A stretch of DNA of 64,000 bases from an uncultured Muribaculaceae bacterium. Its GTDB lineage: Bacteria > Bacteroidota > Bacteroidia > Bacteroidales > Muribaculaceae. The position numbers and the translations under genes are program-made. How positions within the stretch are numbered: position 1 is the stretch's first letter; the number at the start of each line of letters is the position of its first letter. Under the pieces are notes generated by a model. It saw only the letters and a list, made by a program, of their open reading frames with translations, searched no databases and was not told the origin of the DNA. The stretch is from positions 1-64,000 of the forward strand of contig CAMWIJ010000007.1 of NCBI GenBank assembly GCA_947174275.1. Reading direction: 5' to 3'. Shown piece after piece: positions 13,432 through 17,240 of the stretch.

Positions 13432-13490
13432 ACGAATAAAACAAGGATTGTTTATGACACGAATGTGGTATTGAAAGATTACAAAACGAC

Positions 13491-14294
13491 ATGGCGAAGC
13501 TAATAGTAAAAGATACTGAGGTTAATATCCTAAAAGTCAACGGAGAGGATTATATCTGCCTTACCGATATGTTACGGGCTAAAGATGGAGATTTCTTCAT
13601 TACTGATTGGCTTCGTAATCGTAATACCTTGGAGTTTATCGGAATCTGGGAGAAGGTGTATAATCCCAATTTTAATTATGGCGAATTCGCCATAATTAGA
13701 AATCAGTCGGGACTTAATAGTTTCAAGATAAGCGTAAAAGAATTCGTTGCCCGAACTAATGCCATATCCGTTCAGGCAAAAGCCGGACGCTATGGAGGCA
13801 CATACGCCCATAAAGACATTGCATTTGAGTTTGCGATGTGGATAAGCCCCGAGTTCAAGGTTTATATTGTAAAGGAGTTCCAACGCTTAAAGGAAGAGGA
13901 ACAGAAGCAACTCGGCTGGTCTGCGAAACGTGAGTTGTCCAAAATAAATTATCGAATCCACACCGATGCCATCAAGCATAATCTCATACCTGCCGAGATT
14001 ACAAAGGCTCAGGCAAGTATCATATATGCCAATGAAGCCGATGTGCTGAATGTGGCTATGTTCGGCATGACAGCGAAACAGTGGCGTGATGCCAATCCCG
14101 ACCTCAAAGGCAATATCCGGGATTATGCCTCTATCAATGAACTTATATGCCTCTCCAATATGGAGAATCTCAATGCGGTGTTTATTGAACAGGGGATGCC
14201 ACAGCAGGAACGTCTGATCAAGCTCAATCAAATCGCCATCCATCAGATGAGCGTACTTGAAAGCGGTGACAACGATAGAAAATTGCTTAAATAG
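13491..14294 (+). CDS. KilA-N domain-containing protein
   Basis: DYICLTDMLRAKDGDFFITDWLRNRNTLEFIGIWE and GRYGGTYAHKDIAFEFAMWISPEFKVYIVKEFQRLKEEE are typical of KilA-N. Confidence 0.9.
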   Translation: MAKLIVKDTEVNILKVNGEDYICLTDMLRAKDGDFFITDWLRNRNTLEFIGIWEKVYNPNFNYGEFAIIRNQSGLNSFKISVKEFVARTNAISVQAKAGRYGGTYAHKDIAFEFAMWISPEFKVYIVKEFQRLKEEEQKQLGWSAKRELSKINYRIHTDAIKHNLIPAEITKAQASIIYANEADVLNVAMFGMTAKQWRDANPDLKGNIRDYASINELICLSNMENLNAVFIEQGMPQQERLIKLNQIAIHQMSVLESGDNDRKLLK

Positions 14295-14333
14295 CCCTTC
14301 AAAATCAGTTCCATAACGCATATTCGCCCTCGG

Positions 14334-14495
14334 AGGCTCAAAAAATTTGGATATTTCCGAGGTACAAATCAAACAAGACCCGACCGATGACAACAACTAC
14401 CGTCTTCATCTCGGCGGCAAGAGAGTCTTCCAATGGTTCAAAGAAAAGTGGCAATCACTGAAACAGACTTTCAAGAACAGTTTCAGAATAAGATG
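14334..14495 (+). pseudogene. Orphan C-terminal coding remnant (no start codon)
   Basis: An open frame after a TAA encodes ...LDISEVQIKQDPTDDNNYRLHLGGKRVFQWFKEKWQSLKQTFKNSFRIR-stop. Protein-like composition and a stop just before the terminator hairpin; no upstream ATG in frame. Confidence 0.45.
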
Positions 14496-14540
14496 ACAGA
14501 AAGGGAGCCACAGGCTGATCACTTGTGGCTCCCTTTCTGT
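14496..14540. terminator. Strong bidirectional hairpin between convergent genes
   Basis: ACAGAAAGGGAGCCACA / TGTGGCTCCCTTTCTGT, perfect 17-bp arms with an 11-nt loop. Confidence 0.8.
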
Positions 14541-14543
14541 ATT

Positions 14544-16247
14544 TTAGAAAAACTTTTTTTCAGTGGTTCCATCTGAATATCTAATGATATTTAGACCCTT
14601 TATGGGTTCTTTATGTAGTAATCCATTGATATCAAAGATTTCTATAGGATATTTTAGAGTAGGAACATTGATGGGAGTAATTGATGATGAAAAGTCAAAA
14701 CCTGCTATATTCCAAAAATTATCCCAAATTGGGGCAGATTTGTATATATCGAGGTAATCATTAGGTACTTTTAATGCAGAATGTAGATATGTGTTCTTTG
14801 TGAATTCTTGCTTAGTACACATAGGGGGAATAGTTGACTTTACAGTTATGTTTGATATATTATCATTTTTATCTAGATTCAGATAACTGATATCAGTAAC
14901 ATTTTCGCCAATTTCAAAATAGTCTAGGTCTGTGCAATGGTCGAAATAAGTGTTAACGCTATGGAAATTAACATAATCATATATGTATTTTGCTTCTAAA
15001 TCCCTTCCAAGTATGAGTGTGTTAAGATTAATCAGCCTAAATGGACTTCCTGAAACAACACCATAATCAATGTCTTCAAATATACAGAATAGAGGATCAT
15101 TTGATGGAAGGATTGTAAGTTTTAATATATTTTTTATTCCACCCAACAAACCAGAACCACTAATGAAACTCCCATTGAAATAACTTTTAGTTATTAGGTT
15201 TACTTTTGGTCCTATGGTAACAGAATCAATGTCTTGTTGGTCAAATATAGCATAATAGCCCTTTATTGCATTTGTAGTTTTAGGCTGAACTAATTGCCTA
15301 CCAATATAAACTATTTTAAGCTTGCTATCCCTAAAATCTCCTGCTATAAAATCAGTTGCTATGGGATTATAACGGTCTCCTCTTATTCCCCCATTAAATT
15401 TAAGTTCTTGATCTCCATCTGCAATGTATAATTCAGACAGGCTTATACATTTCGTAAATGCTTGATTTGGTATTTCAGTAAGTCCCTGCCCGATACTCAA
15501 TTTATATAGATTTGCACAATTCCAAAAAGAATAGCGTCCGATAGATTGAATATTATTAGTAAGATCAACCTCTGTAAGATATGTATATCCAACAAAGGCA
15601 CCTGGATTTATTTTCGATATGGATTCATCAAAATGTAAACTTGAAATCAACTCTCCATTTAAGAGTAGTTTTGCTTTCATGTTTGACAAAGGATTTGAGG
15701 TATATGTATCATTTAGATTATAACACCAACCAGCCTCAAAAGATATAGCACACCAAGCTTCTAAATCGCAAATATTCACGGAGTCAAGGTTCTCGCAATC
15801 TGAAAAGGCATATTCACCTATTTCAATTATAGATTTAGGAAGTGAAATTTCTTTCAGACCGCTACAGAACCCAAATGCGTGACGGCCTATTTTTGTTACA
15901 CCTTGTGGTATATTAATAGCCAAGAGCTTTGAGCATCTCCAGAAGGCACTCTGCCCTACTAAAACACACGTGCTTGGCAAACTAATATTCTCTATTAAAG
16001 ACTCTGCAAATGCAGAGTCTAGTATTTCAGTTACCGTTAATTCCTTACCTGCAAAAGAAATCTGTGCCGGTATTACGACATTGCCAGTGATATCTTTATC
16101 AATCAATCCGCTAACACCACAAGTTAGAGAAGCTGGATCTATGACATCATAACATATGCCATTGACTTCGAAATCATAAGCATATGTATTGATGGACCCC
16201 AAAACCGAGACCATCAGAATTACAAGTTTGGTGATAAGTTGTTTCAT
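14544..16247 (-). CDS. BspA-like leucine-rich repeat (LRR_5) protein with C-terminal sorting-like tail
   Basis: Signal peptide; repeats such as IPQGVTKIGRHAFGFCSGLKEISLPKSIIEIGEYAFSDCENLDSV; C-terminus YPIEIFDINGLLHKEPIKGLNIIRYSDGTTEKKFF. Confidence 0.88.
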   Translation of the reverse strand: MKQLITKLVILMVSVLGSINTYAYDFEVNGICYDVIDPASLTCGVSGLIDKDITGNVVIPAQISFAGKELTVTEILDSAFAESLIENISLPSTCVLVGQSAFWRCSKLLAINIPQGVTKIGRHAFGFCSGLKEISLPKSIIEIGEYAFSDCENLDSVNICDLEAWCAISFEAGWCYNLNDTYTSNPLSNMKAKLLLNGELISSLHFDESISKINPGAFVGYTYLTEVDLTNNIQSIGRYSFWNCANLYKLSIGQGLTEIPNQAFTKCISLSELYIADGDQELKFNGGIRGDRYNPIATDFIAGDFRDSKLKIVYIGRQLVQPKTTNAIKGYYAIFDQQDIDSVTIGPKVNLITKSYFNGSFISGSGLLGGIKNILKLTILPSNDPLFCIFEDIDYGVVSGSPFRLINLNTLILGRDLEAKYIYDYVNFHSVNTYFDHCTDLDYFEIGENVTDISYLNLDKNDNISNITVKSTIPPMCTKQEFTKNTYLHSALKVPNDYLDIYKSAPIWDNFWNIAGFDFSSSITPINVPTLKYPIEIFDINGLLHKEPIKGLNIIRYSDGTTEKKFF

Positions 16248-16576
16248 ATATTGGATTGTTTCATTTGGTCAATAGATACACGAAGGAGGCAAGTATCGCC
16301 GTGGACATCTGTTACGAAGAAAGCGACACCACAGAATATTACCTTGACATCATTACTTATCTTAGACGAAGGGTCCTGTTGGTGCACACGAGCATTCCCG
16401 TTGAATTGTACGGATCCATCTGGCAAGATGTTTATGGATTTGATCGGGATATCAATATCATAAATCCCGTTTATTTCAAATGCATATCCATCTATGGATA
16501 TTGTCTTTCTGTTATTCCCGTTCTTATTTAGGAAAGATGCGATAATTTGAACTAACTCTACCGAATTGTCAATCAT
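16244..16576 (-). CDS. Hypothetical protein, translationally coupled to the LRR gene
   Basis: 110 aa ORF; 4-bp ATGA overlap with the downstream LRR ORF on the same strand. Confidence 0.55.
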   Translation of the reverse strand: MIDNSVELVQIIASFLNKNGNNRKTISIDGYAFEINGIYDIDIPIKSINILPDGSVQFNGNARVHQQDPSSKISNDVKVIFCGVAFFVTDVHGDTCLLRVSIDQMKQSNI

Positions 16577-16945
16577 ATGTAAAGTATGCCTCGGTCATCC
16601 TCTCGTTGGCGTTTGTTGTTGTACGAAAAAAGCGCAGGAATCTGTATCTGTTGCCATCCTACTTTCCGAGGCTTCTCGCATTGCCCTTTAGATGTCGGAC
16701 GGCAACGCAGAAGCCCACGCTTGTATATGCAATCTTTGCGTCCGGCTATATTTCTCCCGAAATATCGTACCGAAAGCAAGATAATTACATATCCACGGGC
16801 ATCTACCGTTGCACAATCCTTGACATCTAAATGAATTTTGCGAGAATTCCGGAAAGTCAAGAATCAGCGCGGATAAACGCTTTTCATTATGTCTGCATCC
16901 CGCCGCTCGAACCCCGACCGGGCTTCTGCATAGCGGTCTACGAAT
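16575..16945 (-). ncRNA. Candidate structured RNA (stand-alone ncRNA or long structured 5' leader of the LRR operon)
   Basis: Nested perfect helices: 16661-16668/16850-16857 (8 bp), 16673-16680/16839-16846 (8 bp), 16687-16696/16822-16831 (10 bp), 16702-16707/16807-16812 (6 bp), 16725-16733/16784-16792 (9 bp, one G-U). Apical hairpin ATATTTC-GGGA-GAAATAT at 16748-16765. TAACTTTG promoter at 16947-16954 (-). Confidence 0.65.
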
Positions 16946-16946
16946 G

Positions 16947-16954
16947 CAAAGTTA
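16947..16954 (-). promoter_or_regulatory. Bacteroidetes -7 element TAACTTTG for the structured RNA/LRR operon
   Basis: CAAAGTTA on + (TAACTTTG on -), immediately upstream of the structured region. Confidence 0.5.
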
Positions 16955-17097
16955 AGCATTTTTTCTCAATTCCTTGCTATTCAAAATCTCAAATTTGGAG
17001 TGGTATTGCGAAAAAGAATCGAATTAAATATAACTAACGCCCCTTAAAAATCCGAAAATCGAGGATTCCATTTTCGATTTATCCAACTAATTAGTAT

Positions 17098-17125
17098 ACC
17101 ATCAGTACACCATCAGTACACCATC
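17098..17125 (+). repeat. 11-bp tandem repeat ACCATCAGTAC (x2, plus partial ACCATC)
   Basis: Direct reading: ACCATCAGTAC ACCATCAGTAC ACCATC. Confidence 0.9.
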
Positions 17126-17240
17126 TAATTTATAACATCCTCACTGTACAGTTATCTCTTACAACAGAAGATAAGGTATGTTTTCAATTACGACACAGCC
17201 TCTTCTTTTATATGATGAGACAGGATATTTACAGTTATTG

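Follow-up and report, generated by a model that had tools for sequence, protein, structure and literature searches.

In the 64,000-nt stretch of an uncultured Muribaculaceae genome analyzed here (contig CAMWIJ010000007.1, hereafter the window), the minus strand carries an operon of two genes, the second of which encodes a BspA-type leucine-rich repeat (LRR) protein, and this operon is preceded by a structured leader RNA of ~360 bases (Table 1). The original prediction had the two genes coupled, and their reading frames share 4 nt (16244-16247), so that the 110-aa gene and the LRR gene do look coupled. Just behind the LRR gene we observe an inverted repeat (GGGAGCCACAGG...CTTGTGGCTCCC, ~14500-14535) with T/A runs on both sides, which is probably a two-way terminator.

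The minus-strand 371 nt upstream of the operon fold with -133.8 kcal/mol, compared with -103.5 ± 5.1 kcal/mol for dinucleotide shuffles (z -5.9, 0/100). All five minus-strand helices of the original prediction are found in the sequence, as are the apical hairpin ATATTTC-GGGA-GAAATAT (16748-16765) and, just upstream of the RNA, the promoter TAACTTTG (16947-16954). The element runs beyond these helices to a U-tract and a last hairpin, and its parts are collected in Table 1.

Table 1. Features of the leader and its operon in the window
Feature	Position	Strand	Evidence
Promoter TTG...TTAACTTTG (Bacteroidetes -7 TAnnTTTG, -33 TTG)	16947..16969	-	sequence; motif in 110/121 copies
5' variable domain (TAGACCG...CGGTCGGGG and neighbours)	16885..16944	-	alignment; many sequence types
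Strand TTCTTGAC, partner GTCAAGGA 16817-16824; 5' hairpin, alternative to or bridging rod	16856..16863	-	covariation
Outer rod helix V1, 5' strand; partner CGGAAAGT 16661-16668	16850..16857	-	sequence check; covariation
Second rod helix	16839-16846/16673-16680	-	sequence check
CTCGCA, partner TGCGAG 16675-16680; also loop of small hairpin GAAATT/AATTTC	16839..16844	-	covarying pair types
Third rod helix V2, 5' strand; partner GACATCTAAA 16687-16696	16822..16831	-	sequence check; covariation
Antiterminator-type strand GCAACGGTAGATGCCC, partner GGGCTTCT-GCGTTGC 16702-16716	16797..16812	-	covariation
6-bp helix	16807-16812/16702-16707	-	sequence check
Apical helix ATATGTAAT/ATTGCATAT and variable apical hairpin	16725..16792	-	covariation
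9-bp helix, one G-U	16784-16792/16725-16733	-	sequence check
Shared strand GCGTGGGCTTCTGCGTTGC, used by rod or terminator-like hairpin	16702..16720	-	covariation
Terminator-like hairpin, base: CCTGCGC with GCGTGGG	16632-16638/16714-16720	-	covariation
Terminator-like hairpin, remainder: GTTGCCGTCC 16697-16706 with GGATGGCAAC 16650-16659	16632..16706	-	covariation, folding
U-tract immediately 3' of hairpin	16626..16631	-	T count over copies
Last hairpin before gene (GCCAACGAGAGGATGACCGAGGC); loop can pair with 3' strand of terminator-like hairpin (S2-S3)	16588..16610	-	covariation
Candidate binder contact places: CUUCUGC/CAGAU and GGUAGAUG region of leader			
First gene of operon, 110-aa protein, no Pfam match	16244..16576	-	ORF and Pfam
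Second gene, BspA-type LRR protein, 567 aa	14544..16247	-	PF13306, E 6.9e-43

A BLASTN search recovers the element, whole or partial, from 44 of 99 relatives and, ~10 times, from the 2.84-Mb genome of the window; within the same family (Muribaculaceae), 108 of 149 genomes have it. A covariance model (R1) built on the 3' 105 nt identifies 9 copies in the window's genome, 1-17 copies per positive genome of its family and further copies in a few other Bacteroidales families. Among the named hosts of the element are Duncaniella, Muribaculum, Paraprevotella clara, Hallella mizrahii, Phocaeicola oris and Barnesiella MAGs. The same model also gives weak antisense matches (25-29 bits) at many copies (L264-L323), a consequence of the partial likeness between the long hairpin and its reverse complement. 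Outside the order Bacteroidales, the covariance model matched 0 of 58 genomes of the class, and a 19-mer search of a phylum sample matched no genome except the window's own. Two loci from clostridial-titled MAGs (L066, L132) are more likely to be mis-binned contigs than a clostridial occurrence. The phage and plasmid collections searched gave no match and a single copy lies on a viral contig (L173, IMG/VR), and we rejected a phage or plasmid element on these grounds.

The original prediction recognized no RNase P, tmRNA, SRP or riboswitch motif, and the Rfam 15 covariance models at gathering threshold likewise assign no family to the window copy, to 16 divergent bacterial loci or to the one viral locus; a permissive search to E 10 returned chance matches only. 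We found no description of this RNA in the literature searched; the supplements of PMC8040213 give thousands of candidate motifs, among which a fragment may be listed. Judged by these searches, the leader RNA is an undescribed family across Bacteroidales. The overlapping 95-aa ORF, already doubted in the original prediction, is rejected as a gene, its frame being open in only 1 of 49 homologues and thus not conserved.

The rod formed by this RNA is well supported by covariation. Our helix test compared the score of the real partners with that of partners shuffled among copies, and demonstrated that V2 occurs as 94 different helices in 123 copies (20.9 versus 10.6 shuffled) and V1, with all four Watson-Crick pair types, as 100 different helices in 122 copies (19.55 versus 9.91 ± 0.22 shuffled). 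Both helices are hypervariable yet stay paired. Across 49 aligned copies, 94% of the cells of the rod are paired, with a covariation of 0.304 versus 0.093 shuffled (0/500), and this strong covariation, together with the homologues in relatives, bears out the structure first seen in a single sequence. The pair CTCGCA/TGCGAG, for example, also occurs as TTCGCA/TGCGAA, CTAGCA/TGCTAG, TTAGCA/TGCTAA and CTGGTA/TACCAG; we dropped the idea that it forms a separate kissing loop, since it is nested in the rod and the small flanking stem (GAAATT/AATTTC) covaries as well (z 11.4). On the promoter strand, G-U pairs are far more frequent than A-C (58:2, 40:2 and 6:0), which identifies the element as an RNA of that strand and not as a DNA structure.

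One strand of the rod is used twice. The sequence GCGTGGGCTTCTGCGTTGC pairs either with GCAACGGTAGATGCCC in the rod or, as GCGTGGG/CCYRCGC and GTTGCCGTCC/GGAYGGCAAC, in a long hairpin that is followed by U6. This terminator-like hairpin has about 98% of its cells paired in both alignments (98.5% in one), and the 3' segment of the window copy folds into it when taken alone (-39 kcal/mol, z -3.5); a simple terminator scan did not report it because its loop is long. Energy folding of the whole core prefers the rod; nearest-neighbour energies computed without pseudoknots put it 13.7 kcal/mol ahead of the terminator fold on average. With the rod favoured by ~14 kcal/mol, switching would need kinetics or a binder, and the default would otherwise be read-through.

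The copies in alignments A1 and A3 were chosen by an exact 19-mer, so that its invariance there is partly by construction, and we repeated the key pairing tests on 50 copies that lack this exact 19-mer and were picked up by the model. In these copies, covariation is seen for GCGTGGG/CCCACGC (z 8.6; e.g., GCGTGAG/CTCACGC and ACGTGGG/CCCACGT), for GTTGC with the downstream GCAAC (z 9.6), for the upstream pairing GCAACG/CGTTGC (z 4.6) and for AGATGCC/GGCTTCT (z 3.5). Three copies (L177, L179 and L292) have GTTGTC as the shared strand, and both the upstream GACAAC and the downstream GGACA.C have changed along with it, leaving one mismatch in L177 and one G-U in each of L179 and L292. The terminator-like and antiterminator-like pairings are thus mutually exclusive and both partners of the shared strand covary; one strand whose two partners both evolve with it, next to a U-tract, is how an attenuator is laid out. 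The covarying pairing TTCTTGAC/GTCAAGGA may bridge the rod instead of competing with it, in which case the two states would not fully exclude each other. For the 5' domain we dropped a simple H-type pseudoknot, because its connecting loop would have zero length.

A third competitor lies 3' of the U-tract, where the loop of a hairpin with a variable stem can base-pair with the terminator-like hairpin's 3' strand (S2-S3), as in L147 (ACAGTTCCCA/TGGGAACTGT) and L172 (AGATAACTC/GAGTTGTCT). This pairing covaries with z 8.1 outside the Muribaculaceae type and z 3.6 inside it; it is weak in Muribaculaceae copies and is reduced to AGGA/TCCT in the window copy.

Examination of the regions flanking each copy demonstrated that the motif TA-N2-4-TTTG is present at the 5' end of 110 of 121 copies, compared with 8 of 106 in a control window, and that a U-tract (at least 6 T in 10 nt) is present in 114 of 117. 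A co-directional ORF starts within 160 nt of 99 of 110 copies, at a median distance of 61 nt (IQR 55-75), versus 43 of 93 in an upstream control window; this 5'-UTR location, like the conserved core with covariation, is what is expected of a riboswitch or attenuator. A promoter-like motif occurs in 3 of the 97 linkers between leader and gene and is absent from 94. Since the linkers are mostly promoter-free and the leader has a promoter, the gene most likely depends on the leader promoter.

The genes behind the leader are diverse. The 109 downstream proteins form 63 unrelated clusters, the largest of which (n = 18) is BspA/LRR-like, and they represent 45 Pfam families, with LRR_5 (13 members) the commonest among the 25 commonest families listed. 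They include adhesins as well as PEGA, vWA, AbiGi (abortive infection), NucC-like and viperin-like proteins, a CXXX-repeat radical-SAM maturase, two members of a bacteriocin-like family and one UpxY, and 71 of the 109 have a hydrophobic N-terminus by a crude count. These appear to be accessory genes that serve in surface contact, rivalry and defence. At the viral locus L173, the copy lies before a gene for an EF-Tu-like GTPase followed by one for a HerA-like ATPase, possibly a defence operon or a bacterial flank. Locus L150 contains two copies, and the genes behind them belong to one family (MKRVF.../MKQVF...), which suggests that leader and gene were duplicated together.

At the locus in the window, a close relative with a 99% identical nadA product lacks positions 13444-17205 and has 44 nt instead, and a second relative lacks 14358-17150, that is, the leader and operon, and keeps the neighbouring KilA-N-like gene. 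Being missing from the same place in two close relatives, leader and operon behave as an accessory module, and on these comparisons the leader and its genes are gained or lost together. Seven of the nine own-genome copies (L175, L177-L182, L244-L248; contigs C81, C94, C20, C104, C16, C79 and C56) pass, directly after the CACG of the terminator-like hairpin, into the sequence TATTCTATGTTAATTTCCAAAT..., at which the contigs stop, and L004 starts at the other side of this repeat with GCTTTTTTCG. This has the appearance of a single collapsed repeat and may be an insertion element aimed at precisely this site. In another copy (L050:1745-1830), a different sequence, which has a long inverted repeat (TGAATACCATTC...GAATGGTATTCA), interrupts the element after ACGCTT.

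The original prediction of a new ncRNA or a long structured leader is supported, and between the two the evidence points to the leader. We consider it reasonably probable that the RNA represents a new family of cis-acting 5' leaders that determine whether RNA polymerase continues into the gene behind. It would be a transcription attenuator, riboswitch-like in design; termination at the U-tract, regulation of the switch and the identity of the on state are our inferences from the sequences. Transcription would start at the TAnnTTTG promoter, and the nascent RNA could adopt two mutually exclusive folds. In one, GCAACGGTAGATGCCC together with V1 and V2 would hold GCGTGGGCTTCTGCGTTGC within the long rod; in the other, GCGTGGGCTTCTGCGTTGC would pair with the downstream GGAYGRCAAC...CCYRCGC to give a long hairpin and U-tract, the shape of an intrinsic terminator. 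Where the rod wins, polymerase would read through, and the last hairpin could then capture the 3' strand of the terminator and keep it open. The winner would be set by a signal (a metabolite, a protein, an RNA or the speed of transcription) to which the conserved core and the variable 5' domain would respond.

The large and intricate fold, with its own promoter and a terminator-like end in nearly all copies, would also suit a free-standing, trans-acting ncRNA, 6S-like or a protein-binding scaffold, that ends at the U-tract, with the gene read by leakage or from its own promoter. We regard this as rather unlikely, given the near-constant distance to the start codon (median 61 nt) behind 99 of 110 copies, the 94 of 97 linkers without a promoter-like motif and the up to 17 diverged copies per genome; moreover, covariation links the 3' strand of the RNA to the last hairpin, which lies beyond the U-tract, so that RNA past the U-tract belongs to the structure. 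The 6S likeness, which the original prediction called superficial, indeed extends to the rod-like shape only: 6S RNA, including 6S-flavo of Bacteroidetes (RF01685), differs from the leader, which has no 6S or other Rfam match and occurs as many diverged copies directly before varied genes.

The position of the last hairpin just before the start codon, with a loop that covaries with the 3' strand of the core, could instead point to a leader that acts after transcription, on translation start or mRNA stability, with S2-S3 near the start codon as its output. PMC3155529 describes Bacteroidetes as generally without Shine-Dalgarno sites, and structure at the start should on that account matter. This reading accounts neither for the conserved U-tract (114/117) nor for the shared strand being used twice immediately before it, and we judge it quite improbable. 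Least probable by far is a DNA-level mobile or recombination element (a cassette end, a recombination site or an insertion target) that serves gene exchange: leader and operon are absent from the same locus in two relatives, the genes behind are unrelated accessory genes and seven own-genome copies enter the same repeat at one site, all as it would expect, but helix covariation admits G-U and not A-C, and does so on a single strand, promoter and U-tract are conserved, and no conserved partner site was noticed behind the gene in an unsystematic look.

Compared with known systems, the leader resembles riboswitches and attenuators with an intrinsic terminator in its 5' place, in its conserved structured core, in the U-tract before the gene and in the strand common to terminator-like and antiterminator-like pairings. 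It differs from them in its lack of homology to any Rfam class (the T-box model, for example, gives no match), in a core larger than usual, in the extra hairpin after the U-tract that pairs back, and in being placed before 63 unrelated gene groups, with as many as 17 copies in one genome. With so many copies before unrelated groups, no pathway points to a ligand, and no common pathway fitting one was found among the 63 clusters of the 109 proteins. In Bacteroides capsule operons, premature termination in a long 5' UTR is prevented by UpxY (PMC7315117), and these leaders, under NusG-type antitermination, likewise belong to surface-related operons of Bacteroidales with a long 5' UTR; they differ in that UpxY lies directly behind our leader in only 1 of 109 cases, the copy before an UpxY-family antiterminator gene in Hallella mizrahii (L096), and we found no report in the literature of UpxY acting on a folded RNA of this kind. 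Bacteroidales-1 (RF01693) and the other Bacteroidales motifs of Weinberg et al. 2010 (PMC2864571), which were found by comparison, are likewise order-restricted structured RNAs, and none of them gave a cmscan match in the window copy, the 16 divergent bacterial loci or the one viral locus. The OMEGA/HEARO model of Rfam also gave no match, the protein side being covered by the 25 commonest of the 45 Pfam families.

The leader probably switches all its genes by one common signal. More tentatively, and as a possibility that we would not yet put at even chances, it may represent a new class of very large switch RNAs that places many horizontally acquired, functionally unrelated genes of surface contact, rivalry and defence in a single gut bacterium under one signal, with the hypervariable helices perhaps tuning the copies or distinguishing them. 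Gut Bacteroidales carry many accessory adhesin, bacteriocin-like and defence genes. An order-wide leader that brings its own promoter would equip such genes, when newly gained, with a ready-made control module that moves along with them. As a large, well-covarying RNA with many natural variants and with cultured hosts (Duncaniella muris, Paraprevotella clara, Hallella mizrahii and Phocaeicola oris), its structure and function are directly testable, and its signal, once found, would show what the cell senses on deploying such genes.
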